From: a virus
Strand: one strand, 5' to 3'
DNA length: 30,007 nucleotides
Virus record (IMG/VR): IMGVR_UViG_3300034198_024649
Location: 1-30,007 of that record
Shown: piece after piece, positions 2,565-21,200 of the stretch
Position numbering within the stretch: position 1 is the first letter of the stretch
Layout: each line of letters starts with the position of its first letter
Translations under genes and position numbers: made by a program
The notes under the pieces: generated by a model
The model's database searches: none
The model's input: the letters and a program-made list of their open reading frames with translations, nothing else
What the model was told of the DNA's origin: nothing

Positions 2565-2565
2565 A

Positions 2566-3339
2566 TCAATTCATGTACCAATCAGTTGGTAACTCATAAC
2601 GATCCTGCATCTCTTGTTCTAACAATTTAATTTCATCTGTGGCTTCTTCATAGATTTTGTCGCCATTTAATGTGACACCGCCTGGTAATTGTAGTCCAGA
2701 GAACTTTTTAAGATTATTTCCCCAAGTTCTTTTGATGAGTGCTGTGGCATATTCTTTTAACCAACGGTCATTCCAAACTTTGGTATAAACTGTTGGGTCA
2801 ATATTAGCATAACATTCGGCAACAATAATTTGTCCTATTGGTGCTTCGGATACTCCCCACGCCCAATCAATATACAACCTCTGCATATGTCTTTGGAATC
2901 GAATAGGAACCTCTCCAGTAAACAATAACTCCAATGAACGTAAGTGTTGTTGTGTTAAGGTATAATTGATGTATGATGCGGAGGTAAAGTCGTAGAGTTC
3001 ATTTAATCTAAGTTGATATCTTAGGTCAAACATAGAAATACTTGCCTGAGAATCTTGCAGTGGAAATATACGAGTTACGCCAACAATTTCCAAAGCATTA
3101 TTGGATTTGTCCATAGCATCACTAAGGTCTAAATATTTTTGGTCAATTTCTTGTTGACCAATGGCTTTGATATAATAAACCTTTTGTAGTCCATCAAAAT
3201 GATAATCGTGCCAATATTGCAAAGCATCATCTACTCTGTCCTCAATTTGGTCATCGTCAATATTAATTTCAATTACTGGAAAGCCTAATCTACGAAGGCA
3301 ATAATCTTTAAAACTTTCTCTATCATTAACAGCTGGCAT
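2566..3339 (-). CDS. 13: T4 gp13-like neck protein (head completion)
   Basis: A 257-residue neck protein of the T4 gp13 family, expected to assemble at the portal vertex after DNA packaging. Recognisable features are the N-terminal 'FKDYCLRRLGFPVIEINIDDDQIEDRVDDALQYWHDYHFDG' region (residues about 10-50), the central 'ISMFDLRYQLRLNELYDF' block, and the C-terminal 'KRTWGNNLKKFSGLQLPGGVTLNG' block followed by an acidic, helical tail. A strong ribosome binding site (AGGAG) precedes the ATG, and a late-promoter-like CATAAATA lies just upstream, overlapping the end of the 170-residue gene. That makes this the likely head of a gp13-14-15 unit. Confidence 0.88.
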   Translation of the reverse strand: MPAVNDRESFKDYCLRRLGFPVIEINIDDDQIEDRVDDALQYWHDYHFDGLQKVYYIKAIGQQEIDQKYLDLSDAMDKSNNALEIVGVTRIFPLQDSQASISMFDLRYQLRLNELYDFTSASYINYTLTQQHLRSLELLFTGEVPIRFQRHMQRLYIDWAWGVSEAPIGQIIVAECYANIDPTVYTKVWNDRWLKEYATALIKRTWGNNLKKFSGLQLPGGVTLNGDKIYEEATDEIKLLEQEMQDRYELPTDWYMN

Positions 3340-3893: not shown

Positions 3894-6800
3894 TTATGCT
3901 GAACCTAAAGTTGTTACTGTTCCACTCGAACCTTTATATTTTAAAGCTCCGCCATCTATGTACAAGTAACCACCCGAAGAATAAGTGTCTGTTGGAACAT
4001 AACACATATTAGTCATTTTTATTCCTCCATACACATCAACAGCATTGTTTGTTGTATTTGCATATTCGGTTGCTGTTGTTGTACCATATGGATTAAGTGA
4101 TGGTGTAAAGTTTGCTGTATATCTTGCGCAACCAGAAGTAATACGATAGTTGTATAGATATACAGCACCAGCTGCAGACAAACCGTTACTATAACCAATA
4201 GTGTAACAAGCTGGAGCACTAGCTTCATTTGTCGAACAAGTTGTTGCATTAAGCAAACTTCCATTTAAGAAGTAGCGTAAACATCCACTCTGGCGTGATA
4301 ATGCCCAATGATTCCATCCTGTGCAATTTAATCCGCTAGCAGCAAAAAATGCAGTGTAAATACATTGGCAAGTAAAACTCATTTGTGAGGTGTTATTAAT
4401 TCTAACGCATCCACCATTGGACCAACAAGCCCACCAAGCGCTTTGGCCATTATTGTTTGTAAGTAAACTATAACCCCAATACGGCCAGTCAGTTGGATTT
4501 TGTAACCATGTTTCAACTGTAAAATCTCCATTAAATACGTTAACACTATTAGGATTACAGATTCTAACATAATTACTGCTACCAACACATATACTATAAC
4601 CTGTTGCTCCTGGTGGCACAATTGTTGAGTTTCCTAAATTACTGCAAGATTGGTTGGTAATATTGCATCCTGTTACTTCATTTTTAGGAGTAGCACAAGT
4701 ACCTAATGATAAAAATGTAACGCTTGTCCAATTAGTATCACCATATTTTGTTACAGTTTTAGGAATACAAACATTGGTTGCAACAAGATTATTAATTGTT
4801 GCAGTACATGTTACACAAGAGTTTTCTGTAGAAACCAATCTTGATTCTAATGAAGTGTTTGCCCAAATATGGTCGGTCCAAATTCCTTTACCTACACCCA
4901 AACCACCAGTTATTTGCAAAGCTCCAGCCCCAAATCGAGCGTTGTTGCAATTGCTTCTACAAGTACTCAAATCATTTGCAGCACATGAACTATACAAACA
5001 TATAGACTGATTAGTATAATTTTCCGTACAAACAACTTGGTTTAGACCAAGTGTGCTCCATATCATATTGGAGGGACAACATCCATCTGATTTTAATACA
5101 TAACAATTAGGAACATATCCTGTACCACCACCCCAATTACAACCAGCTCTAGCGCTAATTACACAATCCAATGCAGCTGCTGTAAGTTTATTATCAATAT
5201 CACACATAGTACCATATTTTGAAAAATAGGTGTTTGTTGTTGCAACTGATCCTATTAAATTTATGTTAGCGTTATAAGTAGCGGCTAAAACAATTGTATT
5301 ATTTGTAGAATCAACTGAAGATAATGAATAATTTGTATTATCAATATTAATAGTATTTGAAGTGGTTACTGTTCCTGTTGATGAAACGTTGATACCTATA
5401 CCAGTTCCTGCATACGACAATTTGAAATTGGATAGAGGACTCGACCAAGTAGCGCTTTCAGTAGGAGAAAGAGTAGACCAAGGCAAAGCAGTTCCATTAC
5501 AAGTACCACTAGTATAACATAAACGTGCATTACACCACGAAGGATTGGTACAACAACATCCCCAAACATTATCACCAAAACAATATGTATTATTTGTATA
5601 TAATTCAGTAACGACAAAATTCATTACCCAACATGCATTATAACAATTATTTAAATATGTAAATTGAACAGGACAACACACTTGTAGATTTGATATTGCA
5701 TCAGATGATAGATTTAAAATTGAAAATCTATTATCTCCACTAGAATTATATGGAGCAAAAACAATATTTTTTGTATCATTTATAGCAGGATAACCACATA
5801 TAATTTTAGTTTGAGTGGTGCTTCCATCACAAAGAGTATTTGTATAAATTACAGCACCGGTACAACATAAAGCAGAAGCTTGGTAAATAGCCGCTTGTTG
5901 GTTAGATATACAAATAGTGGTTGCACCAGTTCTTGGAATGAGAGAAACTGGTGTCGAATATGTTCCAGTTATTGAACCTAAACTTTGATATTTTAAAGTT
6001 TTATATACATCGCCATCAATAGTAACGTTATTGGCTAAAGGATTTTCAGTAATTTTTAAACTTCTACCTACTACTATTCCTGGATCAAAATTGGTACCGA
6101 CATAAGCTTGTAATGTGTTACTTGTGGTAAATGTTGATGTGATATTAGAAGATGTTAAAACAACATTGTTACTTGTTGAATTGTATAAACTGACTGTTCC
6201 AAAATTTGTATTTCCATTATCTGCTCCAATATTGCCATTGTATGTCAACAACTGATTGATTACACAAGGATTTTCAATACGAGCAATTGTTCCTCCTAGA
6301 ATACCACCACATGCTGTTGTTATGCCGTTCCAATTGTTATTAATCCACCAATTCTCAGCAGCGTTTCTTACAGCAAAAACATACGGCCAATATGATCTAC
6401 AGCAAGTACCATAGGCGTTATCCGATGCACTAAAATTCCAATCATAAGGACTACTAACATTACAAAGTATGCCTGCGGAAAAAGAACAAATTGGTGGATT
6501 ACAAAAACCTACAATAATTTTTTGGCCAGGTCTGAGATAAGAAGAACCTAAAGTATTAGCTTCACAATAAGGATTGTAAAAACATGTATATTGACATGTT
6601 GGAAAACTAGAAGTCCAATTGTTTGGATCATCAGCTATACAAAAACTAAAATAAGATGATGGACTGCTGTTTGCTTGGACTTTTGAAAATAAATCCTGAG
6701 GAGCAACTGTTACAGTTAATGGAACACAAAAAACATCCGGATTCCAAGGTGATCCAACATATTTAACTTTAGCATTAACTACCTGGCCAGGAGTGAGAGC

Positions 6801-7547
6801 TAATATTTTTTGGCCAATTGAAGTGTTTGCAAAATTGACATTACTACCAGAAGAAAAAACTAACCACATTTGATTATAACAATTAACACAGTCCGGTGAA
6901 TAAGGAGCATCACATGGTGCAGTTATGAAAACATTATTTGCTGAATTTATTGCATACGACGGGCTATTTGTATTGGTACTCGGAGTTAATCCTTCAAAGT
7001 AGGTAGAAACAACATAAGAAATTTGGTCAGCATTGCCTAAACTTCTCCAGGCAGTACTAGGGGATTTATTAACGGTTAATTTTCGTAAACAAACATCACT
7101 ATAAGGAGTTAATCCGCCACCACCTGATACAGCCGACCAACTTAATGTTGATCCGTCCGTCTGTAAATATTCTCCTGCGTGTCCTGATTGACTTGGTAAA
7201 GATGTGCCACCGCCACCACCAGTATTAGCTTGATTGTAAGCGGCTTGTGCTAGTGTTGTTGCTGAGTTGGCTTGAGTAAAAGCGGAATTTGCACGACCAT
7301 ATGATGAAGTTGCAGAATTGGTTGCTGCGTTGGCTTGAGTAAAAGCGGCATTGGCTTGAACTCTTGCCCAAGTATCAGTACTTGCTCCGCCAGTACCGCC
7401 GCCACCCGTATTGGCTTGGTCGAAAGCTGCTTGAGTATACCTGAGAATATCAGTATTGGAAACATAAACTCTTCCGTTAGCTGCAATAACTTCTTGATCC
7501 GCAACGGACAAACCGTTTTTAATATTAAAATTGGAATTGGTGGCCAA
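3894..7547 (-). CDS. Cysteine-rich tail fibre / adhesin with LamG-like C-terminal domain (1217 residues)
   Basis: Fibre protein opening MATNSNFNIKNGLSV, which shares the 'NF.(I/V)KNGL' start with the 2942-residue fibre. Residues about 35-110 hold 'QAN' coiled-coil repeats with Gly linkers. Then comes a 'GEYLQTDGSTLSW' beta motif, a long unrecognised beta-rich region (about 150-960), a concanavalin/LamG-like domain (about 985-1150; motifs FTVETWLQ and GWNHWALSR..GCLRYFLNGSL), and a C-terminal 'GGYLYIDGGALKYKGSSGTVTTL' segment of a type I recall from marine phage fibres. I counted 61 cysteines (5%), often in CC or CCC runs, which is extreme for a cytoplasmically assembled phage protein. The start codon is TTG with a GGGGAG ribosome binding site eight bases before it; an upstream GTG leads to an immediate stop in its frame. 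Likely a receptor-binding protein. Confidence 0.85.
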   Translation of the reverse strand: MATNSNFNIKNGLSVADQEVIAANGRVYVSNTDILRYTQAAFDQANTGGGGTGGASTDTWARVQANAAFTQANAATNSATSSYGRANSAFTQANSATTLAQAAYNQANTGGGGGTSLPSQSGHAGEYLQTDGSTLSWSAVSGGGGLTPYSDVCLRKLTVNKSPSTAWRSLGNADQISYVVSTYFEGLTPSTNTNSPSYAINSANNVFITAPCDAPYSPDCVNCYNQMWLVFSSGSNVNFANTSIGQKILALTPGQVVNAKVKYVGSPWNPDVFCVPLTVTVAPQDLFSKVQANSSPSSYFSFCIADDPNNWTSSFPTCQYTCFYNPYCEANTLGSSYLRPGQKIIVGFCNPPICSFSAGILCNVSSPYDWNFSASDNAYGTCCRSYWPYVFAVRNAAENWWINNNWNGITTACGGILGGTIARIENPCVINQLLTYNGNIGADNGNTNFGTVSLYNSTSNNVVLTSSNITSTFTTSNTLQAYVGTNFDPGIVVGRSLKITENPLANNVTIDGDVYKTLKYQSLGSITGTYSTPVSLIPRTGATTICISNQQAAIYQASALCCTGAVIYTNTLCDGSTTQTKIICGYPAINDTKNIVFAPYNSSGDNRFSILNLSSDAISNLQVCCPVQFTYLNNCYNACWVMNFVVTELYTNNTYCFGDNVWGCCCTNPSWCNARLCYTSGTCNGTALPWSTLSPTESATWSSPLSNFKLSYAGTGIGINVSSTGTVTTSNTINIDNTNYSLSSVDSTNNTIVLAATYNANINLIGSVATTNTYFSKYGTMCDIDNKLTAAALDCVISARAGCNWGGGTGYVPNCYVLKSDGCCPSNMIWSTLGLNQVVCTENYTNQSICLYSSCAANDLSTCRSNCNNARFGAGALQITGGLGVGKGIWTDHIWANTSLESRLVSTENSCVTCTATINNLVATNVCIPKTVTKYGDTNWTSVTFLSLGTCATPKNEVTGCNITNQSCSNLGNSTIVPPGATGYSICVGSSNYVRICNPNSVNVFNGDFTVETWLQNPTDWPYWGYSLLTNNNGQSAWWACWSNGGCVRINNTSQMSFTCQCIYTAFFAASGLNCTGWNHWALSRQSGCLRYFLNGSLLNATTCSTNEASAPACYTIGYSNGLSAAGAVYLYNYRITSGCARYTANFTPSLNPYGTTTATEYANTTNNAVDVYGGIKMTNMCYVPTDTYSSGGYLYIDGGALKYKGSSGTVTTLGSA
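4098..4595 (-). other. LamG / concanavalin-like lectin domain within the 1217-residue fibre
   Basis: Residues about 985-1150 show the pattern of a LamG-type jelly roll: a strand ending VNVFNGDFTVETWLQ, a W-rich core, 'NHWALSRQSGCLRYFLNGSL', then 'ACYTIGYSNG' and a 'YLYNYRITSGCARYTANFTP' closing strand. Such domains bind glycans or proteins, which suits receptor recognition. At least ten cysteines fall inside it. Confidence 0.65.
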
Positions 7548-7844: not shown

Positions 7845-8705
7845 TTATTTTAAACCCAATTCTTTACGAATCTTTGTGGCTGAAATGGAATGTGTTTTAT
7901 CATCAAAAGTTTCTTGTTCAATTTTATAACCCACATCACGACCATAAGTAATATTTACAATATTGGGTACCACTTGAATTTCGTATTGTCCTTGAAACAA
8001 TGGATCCAAATCACGTTTAATAAGTGACTTGACTTGTTCGATGGCAAAAGGATTAGATCCTTGCCAACCTTGGCAATCACGAATTTGAATAACTACTTGT
8101 CCCGTTTTGGCAATAGAACGTTCAAATAATGCTCTATGCCCTGGATGCCATGGTTGCCAACGACCTAACATCTGAACGGTTTCTTTTTGCCAGTCAAATA
8201 TCGGCCTACGTTTATCCGCCAAAATGTGGTTGCCAATAAACTCAGCCCACTTTTCACAGTTTTGTTCTGTTACTCTAAAGTCATAAACTTCTGGTGGAAT
8301 GAAAGCTTTATTGGTATCCTCAAACCGACCAGCATCAATGGTATCTACCCAAATTGTCCAATCGGCTTTGAAGTTATTACGCATTTCAACCAAAGGTGCC
8401 ACAAAGTCACAGACGACATAATCACCAGAACACTCCATAGCAAATTGTGCCATCCTGAGGCTTTGACGAATACGACCTTCTTTAGAAAAATCCCAATCGT
8501 TGTATTTTTTACGGACTTCATCTGCATTAAACCAATCAACCTTGACTTTAAATTCATCTTCTGAAGTAAAAATAGTTTCTTTTAAAAGTAATCTATTTGG
8601 ATTAATTTTTTCAATATCTCCATTTTCTTCAAGGTATGTTTTTAATGCTTTAGCTAGATATGTTTTACCGGAACCTGGCAGTCCCATAATTAAGATTTTT
8701 TTCAT
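7845..8705 (-). CDS. P-loop kinase (APS-kinase-like) fused to a nucleotidyltransferase
   Basis: A 286-residue two-domain enzyme. The N-terminal domain has a Walker A GLPGSGKT at residues 8-15, 'WFNADEVR', 'NDWDFSKEGRIRQSLRMAQFA' (about 69-88) and 'WVDTIDAGRFEDTNKAF' (about 119-135), a layout like adenylylsulfate-kinase relatives. The C-terminal domain has GRWQPWHPGH (HxGH at 187-190) and ISATKIR (274-280), the two signature motifs of the HxGH cytidylyl/adenylyltransferase superfamily. The substrate is not readable from sequence. It might make an activated sugar-phosphate or alcohol-phosphate donor, or PAPS in the kinase step for the nearby sulfotransferase. It ends one base before the next small gene. 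ATP sulfurylase was considered, but the HxGH context fits nucleotidyltransferases better. Confidence 0.82.
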   Translation of the reverse strand: MKKILIMGLPGSGKTYLAKALKTYLEENGDIEKINPNRLLLKETIFTSEDEFKVKVDWFNADEVRKKYNDWDFSKEGRIRQSLRMAQFAMECSGDYVVCDFVAPLVEMRNNFKADWTIWVDTIDAGRFEDTNKAFIPPEVYDFRVTEQNCEKWAEFIGNHILADKRRPIFDWQKETVQMLGRWQPWHPGHRALFERSIAKTGQVVIQIRDCQGWQGSNPFAIEQVKSLIKRDLDPLFQGQYEIQVVPNIVNITYGRDVGYKIEQETFDDKTHSISATKIRKELGLK

Positions 8706-8725
8706 AATATATTACCTTTAAAAAG

Positions 8726-8947
8726 TTATTCTTCAATAGAAACTTCTTCTGTTGTTTCTTCTTTTGGTTTCAAAGCATCAAGCTGATCTTGAGCTTGTTG
8801 GCCAACAATGTTACGAATAATCCATGCACCAGATTCAGTAGGTAATTTACCTAAAGCTCCTAAAATGAAATTCACTTGGTCAACATTTAATGTTAATTGA
8901 ACAACGATTGGCTCTTGTGGTTCAACATCTTGTATTTGGTCAGTCAT
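8726..8947 (-). CDS. Small phage protein, 73 residues, unknown function
   Basis: Acidic at both ends, with a central amphipathic block 'VQLTLNVDQVNFILGALGKLPTESGAWIIRNIVGQQAQDQLDAL'. The 'LN.(D/E).VN.IL.ALGKLP' pattern is one I recall in many small tailed-phage proteins of unknown role. It has a strong ribosome binding site (AAAGGAG), lies 22 nt after the carbamoyltransferase and 20 nt before the kinase gene, and has no signal peptide or cysteine. Probably a soluble helical protein. Confidence 0.75.
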   Translation of the reverse strand: MTDQIQDVEPQEPIVVQLTLNVDQVNFILGALGKLPTESGAWIIRNIVGQQAQDQLDALKPKEETTEEVSIEE

Positions 8948-8969
8948 TTACTTCTCCTTTAAATTAAAA

Positions 8970-10682
8970 TTACTTCTTATATATCATCTTACCCAACTCA
9001 GGTAAATACAGATATTTGATTTCACTACGAGTGATTGTATCAACAGCATCCGAAAGTGTTTCTACTAACGGATCACCTGCTAGATTAAAACTGGTATTAA
9101 ATAAAATAGGAACACCAGTCTTTTCTTTAAATGCTGAAATGAGTTTGTAATAGTTTGGATTATCTTCCTCACTAACTGTTTGTATACGGCAAGTATTGTC
9201 TACATGAGTGATGCAAGGAATTTCATCTACTTTTTCTGGTAACACATCAACAGCATACATCATAAATGGAGATTCATCCATACCCGCCATATCAAACCAA
9301 TCATTGGCATCTTCTTTTAATACTGATCCAGCAAATGGTCTGAACCATTCACGACCTTTGACTTTGTTTACAATGGCTTTACCATCAGGAACTCTTGGAT
9401 CAAAAAGAATAGAACGATTACCTAAAGCTCTTGGTCCACCTTCTGCACGACCATTAAACAACGCTACAATATTACCATCTTTAATCAGTTCAGCAATATC
9501 TTCTGGAGTAACCTTTTTAGTTTTTAAATCTTTCATTTCTTTTAGAATATCATCTAAATCATCATAATATGGTTCACAAGAAAGATAAACATTTTTTAGT
9601 TTTACTGGCTCAGTACTTTGTGATTGTGCAAACGCTGCCATTCTTGCCAAACCTAAAGCTGTGCCACCATCATGTGAAAGTGGATCAACATAAATGTTAA
9701 AATTGGGAAATGTTTTTTTATAAAAATAATTAGCAACACAATTTAATCCATATCCACCAGAAATAACAATATTGGTTTCACCGGTTTCATCGTGAGCTTT
9801 TTGGATTAGATTGGCAACCAATTCTTGGGTTTCCTGTTGAACATGCCATGCTAAATTCTTTTGTTTGTCGTCCACCATTGTTTCATCGTTTTGCCATTCT
9901 TGTATATTACCATGGCGAATCAAATAAGGAAAACGAAACTCATCAATCATAGCACCCGATGGATAATTTGGTCTCAATAAATTTTTATTTCCTTTTCCGT
10001 TTATAAAAAATGAAGGAATATTTTCATCGTATTGTCCGTATGGCGCCAATCCCATTGTTTTACCTGCTTCAATAAAATGGAAACCTAGGTAATTAGTAAC
10101 TGCTTCATATGCTTTGGTAATGGTAACGGTATCATCAAATTCACGAACACCATTACTATAGGTGATGGAACTTGCATCAGCATAACGTTTATAAACTGGA
10201 GTAATTTCTGTTGGATAAGCGCACAAAAAGATGGATTCAGTTTCGTATCCTGCAGTCGTAGTTTGATAACCAGATTCTTCATCATTAGACATTACTTCTG
10301 TGTGAAATGATCCTGCACCATCCACAATTACTGCTGCAGCAGTTTTAAATCCTGAATTATAAAAAGCATTAGCTGCATGACCAAAATGATGTCGTTGGCC
10401 CATTTTGGTAATTTTAACATTAGGATTAAATTTACGAACTAATGCTGAATATGAATCTTCACCAGTCCAAGGCAAACTACCATATTCCTCATGTGTTCCA
10501 CCAATAACCAACTCATCAATTTTAAAATTGGTTAGAGCATGTAACATAGATTTATATGGATTACCATCATATTTCATATGGGAGAATCGTTCTTCTTCAC
10601 CATAAAATACAATTTTTCCATCAGACACCAAAGCGGTTGAACCATTGTGGCCAGGATTAATGGCTAAGATATTATAACTCAT
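8970..10682 (-). CDS. Carbamoyltransferase, NodU/TobZ family
   Basis: At 570 residues it has the usual full length of O-carbamoyltransferases, which make carbamoyl-adenylate from carbamoyl phosphate and ATP and transfer the carbamoyl group to a hydroxyl, commonly on a sugar. The N-terminal ASKHA/Kae1-like domain shows 'AINPGHNGSTALVSDG' (residues 8-21), 'GEEERFSH' and the metal-site block HHFGHA (98-103), then 'AVIVDGAGS'. Further on are 'GGYGLNCVANY' and 'DPLSHDGGTALGLA'. The C-terminal YrdC-like part has 'NGRAEGGPRALGNRSIL' and 'FRPFAGSVL'. All motifs I would look for are present, so it should be active. Its ATG overlaps the glycosyltransferase stop (ATGA), implying coupled synthesis. The acceptor is unknown. 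Confidence 0.93.
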   Translation of the reverse strand: MSYNILAINPGHNGSTALVSDGKIVFYGEEERFSHMKYDGNPYKSMLHALTNFKIDELVIGGTHEEYGSLPWTGEDSYSALVRKFNPNVKITKMGQRHHFGHAANAFYNSGFKTAAAVIVDGAGSFHTEVMSNDEESGYQTTTAGYETESIFLCAYPTEITPVYKRYADASSITYSNGVREFDDTVTITKAYEAVTNYLGFHFIEAGKTMGLAPYGQYDENIPSFFINGKGNKNLLRPNYPSGAMIDEFRFPYLIRHGNIQEWQNDETMVDDKQKNLAWHVQQETQELVANLIQKAHDETGETNIVISGGYGLNCVANYFYKKTFPNFNIYVDPLSHDGGTALGLARMAAFAQSQSTEPVKLKNVYLSCEPYYDDLDDILKEMKDLKTKKVTPEDIAELIKDGNIVALFNGRAEGGPRALGNRSILFDPRVPDGKAIVNKVKGREWFRPFAGSVLKEDANDWFDMAGMDESPFMMYAVDVLPEKVDEIPCITHVDNTCRIQTVSEEDNPNYYKLISAFKEKTGVPILFNTSFNLAGDPLVETLSDAVDTITRSEIKYLYLPELGKMIYKK

Positions 10683-11635
10683 TTTTTAATGCCTTTTAAA
10701 TCAATATCCGCTACAATTTTTTTATAAATTTCATTGATTTGTTCTTCTTCAAAGTCCATCATTTTATCGTTGAGTCGATTAGCCAACATATTATCTAATC
10801 CGGCCAAACGAATTGGAGAATATTTTCTGACTCCCGGTTTTTCAATGATTTGGAAATAATCTGGATAAGAAGTATTTACTGGAAAAGTTGAACCAAAAAT
10901 GACGGTACCTGGAGTACCAACAGCTCTTGCCATATGTTGTCCAACAGAATCAACGCCAACAAAATAATCACTATTAGCAATCAAAGCTGCCCATTGTCTC
11001 AAATCTGTGGTATAGTTGATAGCAAATTGGTCTTGTGGTAAAACGAATTGAGGTTCACCAAAGAAAATTAAATTATATTTGAGTGATAGTTTTTTGGCTA
11101 ATGAAAGGTATGCTGACGCACTTAAACTTCTGGATTCTTCGTCACCAACATCAACGGTTTGACCTTGTTGATTTTGTGCCAATGGAACAGCACCACGACC
11201 AAATGGTTGAATAATGACCGTTTTGGATTTTTTTTGTTGTTCTTTTAGTTGTCTGATTGTTTCAAGTGCAACTTTTGTTTCACCTTTATTAAATACTAGA
11301 TGAGGAATACCCAAATCGGAATGGTCGGTTGAACCATTAATCTCTCGGTCAAATCCTTCAACCAAAGAAATTTTTTGGTGAAAATATGCAGGATTACGAT
11401 ATGGTTCTGGTGCAACCACGATGTCCGCTTTAGAAATAACATTATCAAATACACCTTTGGTATCGGGGCTGTAAGTTCTATCTTGCAACTCTGGTATACC
11501 CCAATACAAACTATCCCAACCGGCAGAAATAATACTCCAATTTTCGTTTGGATTTAATCTTGCATATTTAAGAAATGCCGGAATAGCTGCAATTACTCGG
11601 CCCGCACCACCATCAATCCAAAAAACCTTATTCAT
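10679..11635 (-). CDS. GT9-like (heptosyltransferase-type) glycosyltransferase
   Basis: A 318-residue GT-B-type protein. The N-terminus has 'VFWIDGGAGRVIAAIPAFLKYA', the acceptor-side glycine loop. The C-terminal half has 'TVIIQPFGRG' and the family signature 'WAALIANSDYFVGVDSVGQHMARAVGTPGTVIFGSTFP', which aligns with the 'D.G..H.A.A...P....FG.T.P' donor site of ADP-heptose:LPS heptosyltransferases. The usual DSG is DSV here. The donor may be heptose or another sugar; it may modify host LPS/capsule or a phage protein. The ribosome binding site AAGGA is clear, and the gene overlaps the carbamoyltransferase by four bases, which ties the two reactions together. Confidence 0.82.
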   Translation of the reverse strand: MNKVFWIDGGAGRVIAAIPAFLKYARLNPNENWSIISAGWDSLYWGIPELQDRTYSPDTKGVFDNVISKADIVVAPEPYRNPAYFHQKISLVEGFDREINGSTDHSDLGIPHLVFNKGETKVALETIRQLKEQQKKSKTVIIQPFGRGAVPLAQNQQGQTVDVGDEESRSLSASAYLSLAKKLSLKYNLIFFGEPQFVLPQDQFAINYTTDLRQWAALIANSDYFVGVDSVGQHMARAVGTPGTVIFGSTFPVNTSYPDYFQIIEKPGVRKYSPIRLAGLDNMLANRLNDKMMDFEEEQINEIYKKIVADIDLKGIKK

Positions 11636-11648
11636 ATTTTCATCCTTA

Positions 11649-12443
11649 TCATTTATGCCAAAAGTCTAACTTCATATCATTATAATACTGTGTTAATTCT
11701 TTACCGATAATCTGTTCTGGTGGTTTAGATGTTTTCTTTACCACAGGTCTAATATCGTGTAAACCTTTAATACCATGGAACTCATCTTTTTCTTCCATTG
11801 GTTTCAAATTATTTATATCGTATTCAAAACGCTCTATTTCTAAGTAATCTTCAATCTGTTTCATTACTTCTAGTGGTTTAGCCACAATATCTTCGTACTC
11901 CAATATCAACATATTCTGTTTATTAAAGTTATAACCACTTTTAAATGCTTGCCAAGATTCTCCAACAACGCCAGAGTTCCAAAGTAATCGACACCGATTG
12001 GTATTATTTACAACAAATCCAGCTTCTCTGAGTTGTTTATCAATAAAAGTGTCGGGGTCTTTGTTGGTCAAAGTAATAAACGAAGCCATTATATCAGGTA
12101 TATTTCGAACTGTACATATCATTTTTGGTTGTTTACCAAGTAATTCTGTTAAAAGTTTACCATTTTTGGCCCATCCACGATTTTTATCAATTACAACGGG
12201 CTTGTTGAGATAAGCATGAGCGACTTGAATCATCGCAGCAACCATATCTTTTCTTTGTTGAGGATTTTTATCTTCTACCATTGTTTGGGTTTGAGGTTCC
12301 CAATTATTATAAAAGTTTAAAACCATACCCAAAACGGGCGATGTGGTGGTCGCATACAGTTTTGGGTGTTGATTTAGTAGTGATGTTAGTAGCGTTGAAC
12401 CGGATCTTGGTAGACCGGATAACATGACCAATTCATGATTCAT
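11649..12443 (-). CDS. PAPS-dependent sulfotransferase
   Basis: A 264-residue sulfotransferase, which moves sulfate from PAPS to a hydroxyl or amine. The 5'-phosphosulfate-binding P-loop is 'LSGLPRSGSTLLTSLLNQHP' at residues 8-27, and the 3'-phosphate site is 'CTVRNIPDIMASFITL' at about residues 110-125 (conserved Arg and Ser). 'ILEYEDIVAKPLEVMKQIEDYLEI' near residues 177-200 is the typical late helix of this family. No signal peptide is present, so it acts in the host cytoplasm. It leads the cassette with the glycosyltransferase and carbamoyltransferase. The start has only a weak GGAA ribosome binding site. Confidence 0.9.
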   Translation of the reverse strand: MNHELVMLSGLPRSGSTLLTSLLNQHPKLYATTTSPVLGMVLNFYNNWEPQTQTMVEDKNPQQRKDMVAAMIQVAHAYLNKPVVIDKNRGWAKNGKLLTELLGKQPKMICTVRNIPDIMASFITLTNKDPDTFIDKQLREAGFVVNNTNRCRLLWNSGVVGESWQAFKSGYNFNKQNMLILEYEDIVAKPLEVMKQIEDYLEIERFEYDINNLKPMEEKDEFHGIKGLHDIRPVVKKTSKPPEQIIGKELTQYYNDMKLDFWHK

Positions 12444-12487
12444 AATTTATTCCAAACAAAACATTACATAATTAAAACAGTTAATAC

Positions 12488-12495
12488 TATTTATT
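12488..12495 (-). promoter_or_regulatory. Candidate late promoter (AATAAATA) before the sulfotransferase
   Basis: Minus-strand AATAAATA fits NATAAATA. It overlaps the TAA stop of the 81-residue gene and lies about 45 nt before the sulfotransferase start. This gap separates the fibre genes from the enzyme cassette, so a separate transcript is plausible. Confidence 0.4.
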
Positions 12496-12739
12496 ATACT
12501 TCTGGAGCGAATGCTTTACCTGCTGTAATAGCATTAGTCAAATCTGATTTATCTGAAGTGTCGGCAACAATGTGTTCACGTTGCATAACGATTTCTAAGT
12601 GTTGATAGTTTCTGCGAACAGTATTATCAATATCTTCAGAATGTTCATTTTTAGCAATCAATTCATTAATTAAACTGACGCTGTCTCTTGCAGCACGCAA
12701 ATCATTTTCTGCCATTTGTTGTGGGGTTAATTGTTCCAT
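12494..12739 (-). CDS. Small helical phage protein, 81 residues
   Basis: Soluble, largely helical protein: MEQLTPQQMAENDLRAARDS, then 'LINELIAKNEHSEDIDNTVRRNYQHLEIVMQREHIV', ending 'AITAGKAFAPEV'. The 'VRRN..HLEI...' and 'AI..GKAF' patterns recall a conserved small protein found in marine T4-like phages next to structural genes; I know no function. A strong AAGGAG ribosome binding site precedes the ATG, 11 nt after the stop of the 1720-residue fibre. It may be a fibre accessory protein because of position; this is inference. Confidence 0.75.
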   Translation of the reverse strand: MEQLTPQQMAENDLRAARDSVSLINELIAKNEHSEDIDNTVRRNYQHLEIVMQREHIVADTSDKSDLTNAITAGKAFAPEV

Positions 12740-12750
12740 TTAAATCTCCT

Positions 12751-15700
12751 TTATATAATGCTTATTAGTGTTCTTATATATTCAACTTTGGTATCAGCAT
12801 AATTTGTAGAAATTGTTACGTTAACGTTGCTTGTATCCACATTAGCATCAATTGTAAACAAGTTTGCCGTTGATAATGTTCCATATTGAGTAATGTAAAC
12901 ATTTCCATTAACGTGTGTTAAGAAAACTTCAGAAGCTTGTACATTTGCACTGGTGTTAGCTTGAATAATATATTTACCCGTTCTATAGCTAGTTTTACTA
13001 AATGAATCTAAAGCGGTCCATGTAATGAGTGTAGAAGTAGCTACAGGATAACTAGCTTTTCCATCACTAATATTACTACAATTATATAGTGTCACCGGAC
13101 CATTAGAACTTCCGCCGCCAGTAGCACAAACGGTTACATTGCCTGTTTGTCCAGATAAAGCAATACCCGAACCAGCATTTAAACAGGTAACACCACCACC
13201 ACCACCACCACTTACTGCTGCACCATTAATTGTTAAGGCACCAGTAGAATCAACTTTGAGTGTGTTACAACCCGCTTTAATAGCAATCGTGTTGGATAAA
13301 CTAGCTGATCCAGCATAATCACCTAAAATAACGTTAGATCCGCCGGTCGTTACTTCACAACCAGAATATTTACCAATGAACGTATTGACACCACCAGAAG
13401 ATAACTTATATCCGGAACTACGACCAATAACAACGCTATTGCAAGCTGTTAAACCTCCTGAGCCTACTCCATAACCAGCTAACCGACCAATAAATATGTT
13501 ATTGTATCCGGTGGTGTTTAGAGCACCAGCAGAATCACCAATGCCAATGTTTTGATTTCCTGTACTGCACTTTAAACTTGCCGGACCAATACCAACGTTG
13601 ACACAACCACAAGTACCACACCTCATTGCACACGCACCTAGAGCAATATTAAAAATACCTGTGGTATTTCCATACATGGCCATCGTGCCATGAGCAACGT
13701 TGTTACAACCGGTGGTATTATATCTTAATGCCTTGATACCATTAGCAACGTTACAATTGCCGGTTGTATTATATCTTAATGCATAATAACCTAGAGCAGT
13801 ATTACATCCTCCGGTGGTATTACTTCTTAATGCAAATGGGCTTAGAGCTAAATTGAAAATACCGGTAGTGTTAAATTGTAGCGCATTACATCCTAGAGCA
13901 GTATTATTACAACCTGTACTGTTACATCTTAATGCATTATTACCTACAGCAATATTACTTTTACCTGTTGTCGTATATCTTAATGAATTGTAACCAACAC
14001 CAATGTTGAAACATCCGGTAGTGGCAGAACACAATGAAAATACGCCATGAGCAATGTTGTTACATCCTGACGTTACTGCTTTTAAGGCATTATTACCTGT
14101 AGCAATATTGTATTTACCAATAGTAACAGAAGAAATTGTTGCTGGAGCAAATACAGTATTATTATTAGCTTTGCAGTATGATGCACCAGCAGCTGTGGCA
14201 CAAACAATAACATTTCCTGTTTGTCCAGATAAAGCAATACCCGAACCAGCATTTAAACAGGTAACACCACCACCACCACTTACTGCTGCACCATTAATTG
14301 TTAAGGCACCAGTAGAATCTACTTTAAGTGTATTACAACCCGCTTTAACAACAATGGTATTACAGAGAGTGGTGCAACCAAGGTAAGTACCAATAATAGT
14401 ATTGTTGATGCCACTAGTAATATATTTTCCTGAACAAGAACCAATAGCAATATTAAAACAACCACAGTTATTAAATAGTGCTCGATCACCAATAGCAACG
14501 TTTTTATATTTTGTTGTGCCACCAGTTTGTCCTGCTGCAAGACCGATAGAAATGTCATAAGATGAACAAGTACTGTATTGGTTGGCCCAAGTTCCTATGG
14601 AAATGTTCTGCGATCCTTTTGTAGCTTGATTTGCACAAGTTCCTATAGAAATGTTACTCTGACCTACAGTTGAATAATTAGCTGCTCCATAACCTAAAGC
14701 AATATTTCTATAACCGGTGGTATTACATTTTAGTGCATACTTGCCTTGAGCAATGTTAAAATTGCCGGTGGTGTTTGATTTTAATGCATAATATCCTTGA
14801 GCAATATTATTACTACCTGTGGAGTTACTTCTTAACGCTCTCTTACCCATTGCAATGTTATTACTGCCAGTACAATTATATGTTAGAGCATTTTCACCTA
14901 AAGCAAGGTTTTGATTACCGGTGGTGTTATATCTTAATGCGCAATCTCCTACTGCAATGTTGCTGGTTCCAAAGGTATTACGAAATAGTGAATATCGGCC
15001 TAGAGCAACGTTGTTACATGCGGAACTGTTACAACCTAATGATCTACAACCCAAAGCAATGTTATGTGATCCAGTAGTGTTAAGTCTTAATGCACAGAAT
15101 CCTATACCAATATTGTCCGAACCTGTGGTTATGGATGTTGCTGTATTACCAGCAATAAAGTTACGAGCACCAGTAGTAATTGAAGTAATGGTAGCAGGAG
15201 CAAATACAGTATTATTATTAGCTTTGCAGTATGATGCACCAGCAGCTGTGGCACAAACAATAACATTTCCGGTTTGTCCAGAAATAGCAATTCCTGATCC
15301 AGCATTTAAGCATGTTACACCGCCGCCTCCCCCTACTGCTGCACCATTAAGTGTTAAGCAACCGGTTGAATCTACTTTAAGTGTATTGGATCCAGCTTGA
15401 ATAGCAATTGTGTTAGATAATGCGGCTGATCCTACATAAGAACCAAATATGATATTATTGTTACCTGTGGCTATACTATAACCAGATTTATATCCTAAAG
15501 CAATATTATTTTTACCAATGGTGTTACTGTAAAACGCCTTATATCCTTTAGCAATATTACAACTACCGGTGGTGTTACATTTTAACGCAAGCTGGCCTTG
15601 AGCAATGTTATTACAACCAGTGGTATTATAATTTAACGCAAAACGACCCTGAGCAATGTTGTTATAACCGCTGGAGTTATTCTGTAATGCCTTATAACCT

Positions 15701-17913
15701 TGAGCAATGTTAAAAGTGCCGTAGGTGTTACATTTTAATGCTTGAAAACCTTGTCCAATATTATGTTTACCAGAGCTGTTAATAGCTAAAGCGCAATATC
15801 CTTGAGCAATGTTGCTACATCCGGAACTGTTATTTTTTAATGCTTGAAAACCTTGGGCAATGTTATCACATCCGGTGGTACTATATTGTAATGCAGTACA
15901 ACCTTGAGCAATATTATTTTTACCAATCGTGTTACATTTTAACGCATTCCGACCTTGAGCAATGTTGTCAGATCCGCTGACATTTTTTCCAAGTGCACAA
16001 TATCCTTGAGCAATATTACCGGAGCCGGTGGTATTATTGTACATTGTGCCACGGCCATGAGCAATATTATTGGTGCCGGTGGTGTTACATTTTAACGCAT
16101 TTTGGCCAACAGCAAAGTTATTGGAACCGGTGGTGTTGCACGTTAATGATCTACCTAAAAATCCTACATTATTACATCCGCTAGTATTGACTGAAAATCC
16201 ACTCGGACTTACAATAAAATTATTATATCCTGTTGATAATCCCGGTGGAGTTATTCCAACAAACAGGGATGAATTAGCATCTAATGAAAGTCCACCTTTG
16301 TTCCAGCAAGAACCATTAACAAACAATCCAGAAGTATTAGCAATAAGGCAATTTGAACCAGCTTGAATTGCTATGGTGTTAGATAATGCGGCTGATCCTA
16401 CATAAGAACCAAATATGATATTATTGTTACCTGTGGCTATACTGCAACCAGAATATCTACCCAAACCAATATTGCATCTTCCTGTTGTAACACCCCTTAA
16501 AGAGAAAGCTCCTAAAGCAGTGTTCTCAGCTGCACCATTTGTAACGCACTGTAGGGATTTATAACCCAAAGCAATATTGTTACAAACTGTTCCTGTTGAT
16601 GTAGCATAATTGCCTAAAGTGCCACAACCAATTGCAATATTGCTGTTGCTACCGGTAATATTTTTTGCTGCTTTTGGCCCAGCAATAAAACTAGAAGATG
16701 CACTAGTCATACAATAACCGGCTTGATATCCCAAGAAAATATTATAACTACCCGTACATTTAAAAAATCCTGCGGATCTACCAACAGCAATATTATGATA
16801 TCCTGTTGTATTATATCTTAGTGCAGCAACACCAACAGCAACGTTTTGACAACCTGTTGTGTTTTTGAAGAGCGATGATTCACCAACACCTATATTTCTA
16901 ACACCCGTGGTGTTACAAGCTAAAGAAGAATGCCCAATTGCAAGATTATAAGAACCCGTGTTGCAATATAATGCATTACAACCTAAAGCAATGTTATTAC
17001 AACCGGTAGTATTAGTTTTTAATGCATATCGACCAAAGCCAATATTATTATTACCGGAGGTAGTATTCTGTAGTGCACCAAATCCTTGAGCAACGTTATA
17101 ACTACCTGATGTTAATCCACATAATGCTGATACACCCAAACCAACGTTATAACAACCTGTTAATCCTGCTGAAGCACCTTTACCAGCATACCAACCAATA
17201 CCAATATTTGCTTTACCTGTTGTTAAATTATATGCTGAGCAGGATCCTAATGCAACATTATTTAAAGCTGTCGTTATTTTAGTTCCACTATATCTACCTA
17301 ATGCAACATTTCCTGAACCTGAAGTTATATTTTTTATTGAGTTTAAACCTACTGCAAAATTATGACATCCAGTACTAGCAGCAGATCCAGCCAAAGCATA
17401 TCGGCCTAATGCAACATTATAATTTCCTATCGTTGAACACCTTAAAGCTTGTTTTCCTAAAGCTATATTGAATGATCCAGTCGATGATGCAAACAATGTA
17501 CACTTACCAATTGCAATATTTCCATTACCTGTAGTCAAACTAAATGCAGTACCTTCACCAATAGCAGTATTCTCATAAGCCGTGGTAATACGAGATAAAC
17601 TATTAGGACCTAAGGCAATATTACATTTACCTGTGGTTAAACTTTGAAAAGTATTGGAACCAATTGAAATATTATTTGCTGCGGTTGTAATTACAGAACC
17701 GGATCCTGTACCAACAAAAAGGTTATTGTTTGCAGTTAATGATACACCAGCAGATATTGTAGTCCAAGAAAGACCGGAACCAGTTGAACATAAAACTTGG
17801 CCTGAAGTTCCTGTGGTTTGCCCAGCAGTTAACGCACCAGAAACAATTAAGTTTGATACGTTTGCTGAACGGGAATTGTCGATTACGGTATTACCGCATA
17901 TTTTAAGTGCCAT
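12751..17913 (-). CDS. Giant repeat fibre (1720 residues) of 17-residue NIAxG..NTTG beta repeats, cysteine-rich
   Basis: Structural protein with a short N-terminal beta segment (residues 1-90), then four blocks of 17-residue repeats with consensus NIAxGxxALxxNTTGxx (about residues 80-510, 560-825, 910-1180, 1262-1535). They are related to YadA-head-type beta-roll repeats common in fibre and adhesin proteins. Blocks are separated by linkers of the type 'TLKVDSTGALTINGAAV', a poly-Gly run, and 'VTCLNAGSGIALSGQTGNV'. A C-terminal domain (about 1605-1720, 'LDSFSKTSYRTGKYIIQ...YITQYGTL') is shared with the 554-residue fibre. I count 78 cysteines (4.5%), frequently at fixed repeat positions. There is no signal peptide or outer-membrane anchor, so it is a phage fibre and not an autotransporter. 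Ribosome binding site AAGGA. Probably a long or side tail fibre. Confidence 0.87.
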   Translation of the reverse strand: MALKICGNTVIDNSRSANVSNLIVSGALTAGQTTGTSGQVLCSTGSGLSWTTISAGVSLTANNNLFVGTGSGSVITTAANNISIGSNTFQSLTTGKCNIALGPNSLSRITTAYENTAIGEGTAFSLTTGNGNIAIGKCTLFASSTGSFNIALGKQALRCSTIGNYNVALGRYALAGSAASTGCHNFAVGLNSIKNITSGSGNVALGRYSGTKITTALNNVALGSCSAYNLTTGKANIGIGWYAGKGASAGLTGCYNVGLGVSALCGLTSGSYNVAQGFGALQNTTSGNNNIGFGRYALKTNTTGCNNIALGCNALYCNTGSYNLAIGHSSLACNTTGVRNIGVGESSLFKNTTGCQNVAVGVAALRYNTTGYHNIAVGRSAGFFKCTGSYNIFLGYQAGYCMTSASSSFIAGPKAAKNITGSNSNIAIGCGTLGNYATSTGTVCNNIALGYKSLQCVTNGAAENTALGAFSLRGVTTGRCNIGLGRYSGCSIATGNNNIIFGSYVGSAALSNTIAIQAGSNCLIANTSGLFVNGSCWNKGGLSLDANSSLFVGITPPGLSTGYNNFIVSPSGFSVNTSGCNNVGFLGRSLTCNTTGSNNFAVGQNALKCNTTGTNNIAHGRGTMYNNTTGSGNIAQGYCALGKNVSGSDNIAQGRNALKCNTIGKNNIAQGCTALQYSTTGCDNIAQGFQALKNNSSGCSNIAQGYCALAINSSGKHNIGQGFQALKCNTYGTFNIAQGYKALQNNSSGYNNIAQGRFALNYNTTGCNNIAQGQLALKCNTTGSCNIAKGYKAFYSNTIGKNNIALGYKSGYSIATGNNNIIFGSYVGSAALSNTIAIQAGSNTLKVDSTGCLTLNGAAVGGGGGVTCLNAGSGIAISGQTGNVIVCATAAGASYCKANNNTVFAPATITSITTGARNFIAGNTATSITTGSDNIGIGFCALRLNTTGSHNIALGCRSLGCNSSACNNVALGRYSLFRNTFGTSNIAVGDCALRYNTTGNQNLALGENALTYNCTGSNNIAMGKRALRSNSTGSNNIAQGYYALKSNTTGNFNIAQGKYALKCNTTGYRNIALGYGAANYSTVGQSNISIGTCANQATKGSQNISIGTWANQYSTCSSYDISIGLAAGQTGGTTKYKNVAIGDRALFNNCGCFNIAIGSCSGKYITSGINNTIIGTYLGCTTLCNTIVVKAGCNTLKVDSTGALTINGAAVSGGGGVTCLNAGSGIALSGQTGNVIVCATAAGASYCKANNNTVFAPATISSVTIGKYNIATGNNALKAVTSGCNNIAHGVFSLCSATTGCFNIGVGYNSLRYTTTGKSNIAVGNNALRCNSTGCNNTALGCNALQFNTTGIFNLALSPFALRSNTTGGCNTALGYYALRYNTTGNCNVANGIKALRYNTTGCNNVAHGTMAMYGNTTGIFNIALGACAMRCGTCGCVNVGIGPASLKCSTGNQNIGIGDSAGALNTTGYNNIFIGRLAGYGVGSGGLTACNSVVIGRSSGYKLSSGGVNTFIGKYSGCEVTTGGSNVILGDYAGSASLSNTIAIKAGCNTLKVDSTGALTINGAAVSGGGGGGVTCLNAGSGIALSGQTGNVTVCATGGGSSNGPVTLYNCSNISDGKASYPVATSTLITWTALDSFSKTSYRTGKYIIQANTSANVQASEVFLTHVNGNVYITQYGTLSTANLFTIDANVDTSNVNVTISTNYADTKVEYIRTLISII
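13309..14130 (-). repeat. Repeat block 4 of the 1720-residue fibre (51-bp units)
   Basis: Roughly 16 imperfect units of 51 bp encoding the NIAxGxxALxxNTTG repeat; residues about 1262-1535. Cysteines recur at xCNTTG and TGCNN. Confidence 0.8.
14374..15186 (-). repeat. Repeat block 3 of the 1720-residue fibre (51-bp units)
   Basis: Roughly 15-16 imperfect 51-bp units, residues about 910-1180. Toward the end the repeat drifts (NISIGTCANQ, DISIGLAAG), closer to classical YadA-head repeats. Confidence 0.8.
15410..15477 (-). repeat. 68-bp exact repeat, copy A
   Basis: Identical by eye to 16376-16443. It encodes the ATGNNNIIFGSYVGSAALSN segment that closes repeat block 2. Exact identity over this length inside diverged repeats indicates a recent duplication or gene conversion. 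Confidence 0.85.
15439..16236 (-). repeat. Repeat block 2 of the 1720-residue fibre (51-bp units)
   Basis: Roughly 15 units, residues about 560-825. This is the most regular block, dominated by NIAQG..AL; ALKCNT recurs repeatedly. Confidence 0.8.
16376..16443 (-). repeat. 68-bp exact repeat, copy B
   Basis: Partner of 15410-15477; closes repeat block 1 of the same gene. Confidence 0.85.
16384..17676 (-). repeat. Repeat block 1 of the 1720-residue fibre (51-bp units)
   Basis: Roughly 24 units, residues about 80-510, more divergent than block 2 and with some longer units (for example the GSAASTG and GASAGLTG insertions). Confidence 0.75.
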
Positions 17914-17942: not shown

Positions 17943-18206
17943 TTATTGTTTTTTTAATTTGTCAATTTGTTTTTGTTGTTCTTTGACTGCCTCAAGTAGA
18001 ATAGCAATAAGTGGCAAGTAAGAAACTGATAATCCTTTGTCTCCTTGCGTTACCAACTCAGGTAATACTTTCTGTAGTTCTTGAGCAATAACACCGTAGG
18101 ACTTGTTTCCTGAGTCTTTCCAGTTGAACGAAACACCATTGATAGTATTTATAATATCCAACGGAGACTGGATTGTTTCCACATTTTCTTTAAACTTAAC
18201 GTCAGA
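17943..18206 (-). other. Peptidase_S74 intramolecular chaperone domain
   Basis: Residues 2856-2942. 'SDVKFKENV' corresponds to the SD.RxK.NI motif, with catalytic Ser2856 and a Lys dyad candidate close by. 'FNWKDSGNKSYGVIAQELQKVLPELV' is the family core, and a C-terminal helix follows (EAVKEQQKQIDKLKKQ). Autocleavage N-terminal to the Ser is the known mechanism of the family. Confidence 0.9.
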
Positions 18207-21200
18207 TGTGGTATTTAAGTCAACGGTAGTCAATGTTCCAGTAGAAGGATTATAGGTTAACTTCGAGCTGGATGTATTGGCCAATGACAAGGTACCAGAA
18301 GTACTCAATGACATTAATGGATATAATGTAACATCGTTAGTAGCATCATTAGTAATTGATATTGATACAGCAGTATTGGCTTGGTTATAAGCCGCTTGTG
18401 CTGAATTGGTAGCAGCATTCGCTTGAGCATATGCTCCAGCGGCAAAATTATTTGTTGCTGTAATTCTAGTATTTTGTCCTAGGTCAACACCTTGAATTAT
18501 AGTAATGTCAGAAGCAGCAGTATTTGCTTTGTTATATGCTGATTGTGCTGAATTGGTAGCAGCATTTGCTTGTCCATATGCTGAAGTAGCATATGAATCT
18601 ACAGCTGTGATTCTGGTATTCTGACCAGCATCTACACCTTGAATTATAGTAATATCACTAGCATTGGTGTTAGCTGAATTATAAGCCGCTTGTGCTGAAT
18701 TGGTAGCAGCATTCGCTTGAGCATATCCGGATGTAGCATATGTGTTGGTAGCATTGGCTTGAGCATAAGCAGCAGTAGAATAAGTATAAAGTTCTACGCC
18801 ATTTACTGTTACTGTACTTGCACCCGAAACATTACCTTTAAAGTAAGAAGCATACGCATTGGCATAAGCAAAACTTGGATGAGCAATATTAATTAAATTG
18901 TTTGCTCCAACTTCTGGTGTATAACCTTTAAAGAAAATATATTCTTTTAGTATTGGGTCTCTTATCAAACCAGTATGTGCATTTGCGCCGTCATTATAGT
19001 GACCAGCAAAACCAATATCAACCGCATCAGATATGTAGTTGCCAAGACCAAGAATAATAAATGGGTCGGTAACTTCTAATGCTGATACTGAAATAGAAGT
19101 TGTATTACCTAGTACAGTCAAGTTACCACTAACAGTCATATCATTACTTACAGATATTGATCCAGAAATTGAACCTCCTGTTAATGGTAGAGCATTATTG
19201 GCTTTATTGTAAGCGCCAGAAGCATAATTGTCTACAGAACTAATGTTAGTAGCATTAGTATTAGCATTATTATGAGCTGTTTGAGCAGAATTTGTTGCTG
19301 CGTTAGCCTGACCATATGCACTTGTGGCGTATGAATTTACGGCAGAAATATAAGTATTTTGACCTAAGTTTACACCTTGGATTACAGTAATTACACCGGC
19401 ATTGGTGTTTGCCAATCCATATGCACCAGAAGAATAATTATTGACAGCCGTAATATTTGTATTCTGTGCATCGTTAATGCCTTGAACATATGTAATGTTG
19501 GAATTTAGATTACTATTTGTTGTATTAGCTTGATTATAAGCTGATTGAGCAGAGTCGGTAGCAGCATTTGCTTTGCCATAGGCTGATGCAGCATAAGAAT
19601 CTATAGCTGTAATTCTAGTATTTTGTTCTAGGTCAACACCTTGAATAATGGTGATTGCTGATGAATTGGTATTAGCTAAACCATAAGCAGATACGGAATA
19701 ACTATTAGTGGCATTTGCTTGGTTATAAGCACCTTGAGCAAAGTTGTTGGTAGCAGTAATATTGGTATTCTGAGTATCATTAACACCTTCAATGATAGAC
19801 ATTCTGTTATTTTGACCAGCATCTACACCTTGAATTATAGTGATTGCACTAGCATTGGTATTTGCTTGTCCGTATGCTGAGGTAGCATATGAATTTGTAG
19901 CGTTAGCTTGTCCATATGCTGATGTAGCATAGGAATCTACAGCTGCAATTCTGGTGTTTTGTGTTGTATTAACATTTTGAATTATAGTAATATCAGAAGC
20001 ATTAGTATTAGCTAAACCATAAGCACCAGCTGCGTAATTGTTAACAGCAGTAATATTGGTGTTTTGAGTGTCATTTACACCTTGGATTACGGTGATTGCA
20101 CTAGCATTAGTATTGGCTTGTGCATAAGCAGACTGTGCTGAGTTTGTAGCAGCATTGGCTTGTGCATATGCTGAAGTTGCATAATTATTTGTGGCATTTG
20201 CCTGAGCATAAGCAGATTGACTGTAAGATTCTACAGCATTGATATGTGTATTTTGTCCTAAATCTACACCTTGAATAATAGTAATGTCAGAAGCATTAGT
20301 ATTTGCTTTATTAAATGCTGAACTAGCAAACGTATCTACGGCAGTGATTCTGGTATTCTGAGCATCATTAACACCTTGAATTATAGTAATGTTGGAAGCA
20401 TTAGTATTGGCTTGGTTATAAGCAGCATGTGCTAAATCATCTGCATCGTGAGCAAGCGTAAATGCTGAATTTGCTTGACCATAGGCCGATTGAGCAGAAT
20501 TAGTGGCAGCATTGGCTTGTGTATACGCTGAGGTAGCATATGAATCTACAGCAGTAATTCTAGTATTTTGACCAAGGTCAACACCTTGAATTATAGTAAT
20601 ATCACTAGCTGTTGTATTTGCTTTATTGTATGCTGATTGTGCTGAGTTTGTGGCTGCATTGGCTTGAGCATAAGCACCAGTAGCATAAGAATCTACAGCA
20701 GTAATTCTAGTGTTTTGAGTTGTATTAACACCTTCTATTACTGTAATATTACCAGCATTGGTATTCGCTTGGTTGTATGCTGATTGTGCTGAGTTTGTGG
20801 CTGCATTAGCATAACTATTTGTTGTATTGGCTTGGTTATAAGCAGATTGTGCCAATTGATTGGCAGCATTTGCTTGAGCATAAGAACTATTAGCACTATC
20901 AAGTCCAGCAATCTTTTGGTAATTGGTGCCATCATTGGTGAATTCCCAATATTTGTCTGTTTCGTTCCATAACAACTTAGTGTTGGCAGAAGAACCTCTA
21001 TTGATTTCAATACCAGAATTTAATGTAGGTGAACCGGTTACATTTGAATTTAATGTAACAATATTATCTTCAATGTTAACATTAATAGTATTAGCATAGA
21101 ATGTTGTACCAGTTACAGTTAAGTTACCAGTAATGTTGGTGTCACCAGTAATTGAACCACCGGAAGAACTAAACTTACTATTGGCAGTATTGTAAGCGGC

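Follow-up and report, generated by a model that had tools for sequence, protein, structure and literature searches.

What are cysteines doing on the surface of a repetitive phage fibre? The question is raised by a protein encoded in a 30,007-nucleotide (30-kb) IMG/VR virus record, here called the window, in which the main genes all lie on the minus strand (Table 1). The protein, which belongs to a T4-like phage, resembles tail fibres and adhesins, and 78 of its residues (4.5%) are cysteine, 53 of them within the units of a 17-residue repeat. This enrichment is real, since most other ORFs of the window contain only 0-1.4% cysteine, the exception being a second cysteine-rich ORF, and a 2942-residue S74-chaperone fibre encoded at 17943-26771, with QANTNASDITVIQGVD-type repeats, contains none at all. 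Reassignment of cysteine codons was considered and rejected because the remaining window ORFs avoid these codons.

Table 1. Features of the window and of three cyanophage loci discussed in the text (coordinates of the last three rows are those of the respective locus)
Feature	Coordinates	Strand	Details
Genes of gp13/14/15 type for a T4-like neck and tail	688-3339		
Second Cys-rich ORF	3894..7547	minus	1217 aa with 61 Cys (5.0%); NTTG repeat absent
P-loop kinase + nucleotidyltransferase-like fusion	7845..8705	minus	APS-kinase-like score; NMNAT/cytidylyltransferase-like domain
NodU/Nol-like carbamoyltransferase	8970..10682	minus	Pfam PF16861/PF02543, PHROG 1601
GT9-like (heptosyltransferase-fold) glycosyltransferase	10679..11635	minus	Pfam PF01075 30.3 bits, cut-off 22
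Sulfotransferase family protein	11649..12443	minus	Pfam PF13469 E 8.8e-18
Fibre/adhesin ORF	12751..17913	minus	1720 aa; virion structural/tail spike families matched in PHROG
Repeat block 4	13336..14109	minus	unit list
Repeat block 3	14404..15114	minus	unit list
Repeat block 2	15457..16170	minus	14 uninterrupted units; stretch used for AlphaFold2
Repeat block 1	16423..17673	minus	unit list
Cys-rich proteins, S-SSM7 (L330)	7920-10313		
Cys-rich proteins, S-CAM1 (L331)	8320-11120		
Cys-rich proteins, P-SSM2 (L463)	10261-13127		

The initial annotation had described the repeat as NIAxGxxALxxNTTGxx. The 17-residue unit is indeed present, but an iterated position-specific scan places 61 copies between 13336 and 17673 rather than the roughly 70 first estimated, and these fall into four blocks separated by linker modules. 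Arrays of the form NxAxGxxALxxNTTGxx together with a phage origin characterize the phage NTTG-repeat fibres, and both are found here. A search of PDB sequences with the fibre returned a single, chance match to a pectinesterase, neither Pfam nor NCBIfam holds a model for it, and searches for close relatives of its C-terminal domain and for a near-identical phage found none.

The fold of the repeat was predicted with AlphaFold2 from the 14 units of block 2 together with 39 viral relatives, giving a model with a pLDDT of 84.9 in which every coil has a single short strand (unit positions 2-4). Foldseek comparison with the PDB gave weak matches only; a structural aligner placed the heads of trimeric adhesins at the top, with UspA1 at Z 18.7 (rmsd 2.1 over 204 residues), BpaC at 16.6 and CbpF at 16.4, and the P-SSM2 fibre was found among the matches to viral models. 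This model supports the earlier proposal that each unit forms one coil of a beta-roll. Most likely the roll is left-handed and of the YadA-head type, its coils exceeding the usual length by a few residues, and the fibre is probably trimeric. The likeness to UspA1, BpaC, CbpF and the YadA heads comprises the predicted coil fold, a conserved glycine after the inner strand and variable outward positions, with Z scores of 16-19 over about 180-204 residues for the first three. In contrast to the heads of the trimeric autotransporter adhesins, which have 14-15 residues per coil, the window repeat has 17, belongs to a phage protein without a membrane anchor and carries cysteine at its predicted outward positions; with 17 residues per unit, its fold is like that of the YadA head rather than a strict member of that group.

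Within the unit, cysteine is concentrated at certain positions. A position-by-position count gives five in column 6, eight in 7, four in 10, 15 in 11, three in 13, one each in 14 and 15, 11 in 16 and five in 17, with none in columns 1-5, 8, 9 and 12, so that the core is free of cysteine and the residues are nearly confined to six variable positions. The distribution over the 17 columns is far from uniform (chi-square 103, P ~1e-14), in agreement with the regularity first noticed. Two main places had been singled out, just before and just after the NTTG motif, and the corresponding columns 11 and 16 do hold 26 of the 53 cysteines, but their lead among the six variable columns compared is modest (chi-square 11.5, P=0.04). 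The cysteine columns are the high-entropy columns of the unit and, judging from the modelled fold, would point outward. Their counts track the positions of alanine and serine in cysteine-free relatives (Spearman 0.99, six columns). The simple idea that cysteine replaces alanine or serine fits the window but fails for the HTVC-type fibres, in which columns 7 and 10 dominate. A diversity-generating retroelement, an idea prompted by a T4-like phage protein encoded nearby (26832-28496) that has Mtd_N, the N-terminal domain of the major tropism determinant, is an unlikely source of the variable cysteines, since lysine, glutamine and glutamate also occur at the variable columns; family searches of the window revealed no reverse transcriptase.

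Regular columns in a stacked fold invite the thought that thiols line up along the fibre, as had been proposed at the outset. The beta-roll of BpaC rises 4.8 Å per coil (PMC9543794), and at this spacing equal positions stack, so thiols can stack only if adjacent coils share a cysteine column. Such sharing occurs at the level of chance. Same-column cysteines in consecutive coils of the window fibre number six against 6.2 expected by permutation, with a longest run of two, and in 108 cysteine-rich relatives they number 324 against 331.6 ± 16.2. Close pairs are in fact depleted in these relatives (observed/expected 0.47 for columns 7-10, 0.54 for 10-11 and 0.55 for 16-17), and the number of cysteines per coil is under-dispersed (variance 0.591 against 0.655 ± 0.012). 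Serine and asparagine display no such avoidance or under-dispersion; arginine displays it in part. Thiol ladders are rejected by these permutation tests in both the window and the 108 relatives, and any arrangement of the cysteines in register along the fibre, be it as disulfides, metal sites or ladders, is very improbable.

The cysteine-rich repeat fibres form a separate class. Relatives were collected in a biased sample, by a scan for a cysteine-containing unit, and in an unbiased one, by the same unit with cysteine not required. In the latter, repeat cysteine is missing from 78 of 114 relatives, a dozen or so carry 0.3-1.4 per unit, and it is this absence from most unselected relatives that makes the cysteine-rich fibres distinct. 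Only one bacterial genome contig was found to hold the cysteine unit. The 17-residue repeat recurs, with identities of about 29-46%, in PSSM2_298 of P-SSM2, gp2.52 of SPO1, gp52 of HTVC111P, gp48 of HTVC112P and gp37 of CRP-1. HTVC111P and HTVC112P resemble the window in having repeat cysteines, and both have a GT9-like gene directly downstream of the fibre, whereas the repeats of P-SSM2, CRP-1 and CRP-7 lack cysteine and SPO1 has only two. Cysteine in this class takes the place of alanine and of acidic residues, its density falling as that of Asp/Glu in the variable columns rises (rho -0.57 over 221 repeat-fibre proteins of the loci retrieved), although the HTVC-type fibres are not depleted in acidic residues. 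The arrays are combined with many different C-terminal modules. Conservation at cysteine sites, as judged from a small number of close pairs, is about average (0.41), so the position of cysteine is not strongly conserved; positions turn over among relatives while the density stays similar. The subfamilies of NTTG-repeat fibres also differ in their cysteine columns, and the column profiles vary between enzyme subtypes (chi-square 424, phylogeny not being controlled).

These enzyme subtypes belong to a family of glycosyltransferases encoded beside the fibres. In a Pfam scan of the genes just downstream of cysteine-rich fibres, glycosyltransferases dominate (GT group 1 in 9 of 82, GT9 in 7 of 82), and those families are absent among the families listed for neighbours of cysteine-poor fibres. 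The GT9-like family was defined by profile searches, with subfamilies other than that of the window scoring around or below the Pfam PF01075 cut-off. A GT9-like gene is present at 38 of 120 loci with cysteine-containing fibres and at 1 of 96 cysteine-poor loci (P=3e-10), the latter being a 160-residue fragment; for the unselected sample alone the figures are 5 of 11 and 1 of 86 (P=4e-5). Counted against a role in glycosylation, about 68% of the cysteine-containing loci lack a GT9-like gene within the stretch retrieved, which in many cases ends early.

The association was also read from the enzyme. A reverse scan that started from the enzyme alone, with no condition on the fibre, gave among its best 80 loci 71 with an upstream ORF, 68 of which are repeat fibres; all 68 have repeat cysteines and mostly lie 0-28 bp from the enzyme gene, and 64 of these HTVC-type fibres are non-redundant. 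For two further enzyme subfamilies, again with the best 80 loci each, cysteine is present in 25 of 25 and 26 of 26 NTTG fibres, and many loci in these scans contain unrelated ORFs with up to 13% cysteine. An ORF with at least 3% cysteine is found at 42 of 49 and 35 of 37 well-flanked loci among these best 80, compared with 6 of 91 cysteine-poor controls; the remaining 7 and 2 loci, with no cysteine-rich ORF, are counted against glycosylation. The scans include some near-duplicate loci, so that the counts are not all independent. Cysteine-rich structural proteins are tightly coupled genetically to GT9-like genes, though genetic linkage by itself does not identify the substrate of the enzyme. 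At one further locus (L117), a cassette resembling that of the window, with additional glycosyltransferases, immediately follows a cysteine-rich fibre.

In the window, the only two cysteine-rich ORFs flank a cassette of sulfotransferase, GT9-like, carbamoyltransferase and kinase genes. The GT9-like and carbamoyltransferase genes overlap by 4 bp, and the kinase-nucleotidyltransferase fusion may produce an activated sugar or another kind of donor. The sulfotransferase gene and a gap of about 300 bp separate the fibre from the GT9-like gene, which was counted against glycosylation. In the second cysteine-rich ORF, a stretch near the C-terminus weakly matches a LamG-annotated phage protein.

The GT9-like protein of the window scores above the gathering threshold of PF01075, and its AlphaFold2 model (pLDDT 91.2) has the GT-B heptosyltransferase fold. 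Its best match in the PDB is the GT9 structure 3tov (Z 24.0), followed by WaaF (21.7), TibC (21.4) and WaaC (19.6), then by chains of the plant NDH supercomplex at about 19, after which the scores drop to 13. WaaC and WaaF are its closest PDB relatives by sequence (WaaC profile E 0.016) and fold, and they act on lipid A-core sugars, whereas the phage gene is coupled to cysteine-rich proteins of virion type. The closest functional model is provided by TibC and Aah, which share the GT9-like fold and act on the beta-solenoid adhesins TibA and AIDA-I. TibC, which heptosylates serine on a beta-helix adhesin, is a dodecamer with a four-cysteine iron finger (PMC4358343); this finger, a mark of the bacterial autotransporter heptosyltransferases (BAHT), is absent from the window protein, which contains no cysteine, and the acceptor proposed here is cysteine in place of serine.

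We consider it slightly on the probable side that the fibre cysteines serve as acceptors in an S-linked glycosylation carried out by the GT9-like glycosyltransferase that the phage encodes. In such a system, the cysteines would be spread singly over the outer face of the beta-roll, the GT9-like enzyme encoded two genes downstream would attach a sugar to their sulfur, and the sulfotransferase and carbamoyltransferase would probably modify the resulting glycan further. The fibre would then leave the cell sugar-coated, with roughly one site per coil, and the coat could serve in shielding, stickiness or receptor mimicry. Dispersed single cysteines, a similar density at labile positions and subtype-specific columns all suit attachment sites, and the placement of the window's two cysteine-rich ORFs on either side of its cassette also speaks for glycosylation. 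We infer the fibre as substrate, cysteine as acceptor, the nature of the sugar and the biological role from genes and models, and the phage system resembles that of TibC with cysteine in the place of serine. The loss of acidic residues in the most cysteine-rich fibres is not accounted for by glycosylation, and no explanation for it was found.

Known heptosylation of adhesins is on serine, and sugars linked to cysteine sulfur have to date been described mainly in small bacteriocins. Sublancin and glycocin F are S-glycosylated in this way and resemble the proposed fibre modification in their Cys-S-sugar bond, but they are small secreted peptides modified by GT2-family enzymes, and are neither fibres nor substrates of GT9. 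In the open-access papers searched we found no precedent for a cysteine-glycosylated virion protein or a GT9 enzyme acting on cysteine, and nothing relevant on cysteine-rich phage fibres or phage S-glycosylation.

The principal alternative is that the glycosyltransferases remodel the O-chain of the host lipopolysaccharide, thereby excluding other phages, and lie beside the fibres in a shared host-recognition cluster, the cysteines having some other use such as surface stickiness. This is the published reading for the glycosyltransferases of pelagimyophages, in which cysteine is not mentioned (PMC7029224), and the variable cluster between the fibre genes and gp13/gp14 is indeed rich in both types of gene. 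It nevertheless seems unlikely to us. A GT9-like neighbour is nearly absent from cysteine-poor repeat fibres (1 of 96), scans that start from the enzyme lead to cysteine-bearing fibres every time (68 of 68, 25 of 25 and 26 of 26, best 80 loci each), and O-chain remodelling gives no reason for a coupling to cysteine across unrelated families, the distance in the HTVC type usually being no more than tens of bases.

The thiols might instead be the functional groups themselves, isolated among tyrosine, phenylalanine, arginine and few acidic residues in a reactive or sticky surface for multivalent binding of host envelopes, metals or particles, or for disulfide exchange with host proteins. The substitution of cysteine for alanine and acidic residues at outward positions, the negative correlation with Asp/Glu, the labile position at similar density and the avoidance of pairs, which keeps thiols free, would all be expected of such a surface, yet it leaves the GT9-like coupling unaccounted for and sits poorly with the undepleted HTVC-type fibres; we think it decidedly unlikely, a little more so than O-chain remodelling. 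That the enrichment is a neutral compositional by-product, or reflects an unusual reading of TGT/TGC in this virus, agrees with cysteine positions that are labile and follow alanine and serine frequencies, but hardly deserves credence when cysteine codons are nearly unused in the other window ORFs and the cysteine-rich class recurs with the enzyme in many unrelated contigs.

SAR11, Prochlorococcus and Synechococcus are the most abundant bacteria of the ocean, and the glycosyltransferase, heptose and carbamoyltransferase genes found in their phages are usually explained as modifiers of the host wall. A fixed association with cysteine-rich structural proteins points to a different target, the surface of the phage itself, and offers a means of spotting glycosylated virion proteins by their sequence. 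Extended to such phages, S-glycosylation would be the work of a widespread GT9-type system, with a heptose pathway in some phages, acting on cysteine-studded virion proteins, both repeat fibres with roughly 1-7% cysteine and others with 8-13%; this broader reading strikes us as plausible, if a little short of probable. If it is true, phage fibres with a sugar coat can be told by their cysteine content, and the 'LPS genes' that such phages carry gain a virion substrate.

An out-of-sample check was offered by P-SSM2, whose repeat units are free of cysteine although it has a GT9-like gene, so that the glycosylation model predicts another cysteine-rich protein nearby. PSSM2_304 and PSSM2_306 (10.1% Cys) lie just upstream of that gene. 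Enzymes of the window subtype adjoin unrelated proteins with 8-13% cysteine, as also seen in P-SSM2, S-SSM7, S-CAM1 and S-CAM3, and three such proteins each are found in S-SSM7, S-CAM1, S-CAM3 and Sf-FS3. Aeromonas phage HJ05 has a protein with 4.1% cysteine directly upstream of its GT9-like gene; Vibrio phage D505, with a tail protein of 2.3% cysteine directly downstream, is a weaker case. Genes for heptose synthesis occur in the same cluster in P-SSM2, S-SSM7, S-CAM1 and S-CAM3. The proteins beside the GT9-like genes of S-SSM7, S-CAM1 and P-SSM2 number two or three, with about 260-360 residues and 8-11.5% cysteine, and these clusters also contain genes for a carbamoyltransferase and for heptose synthesis, together with genes annotated as 'cysteine dioxygenase', which may relate to thiol chemistry.
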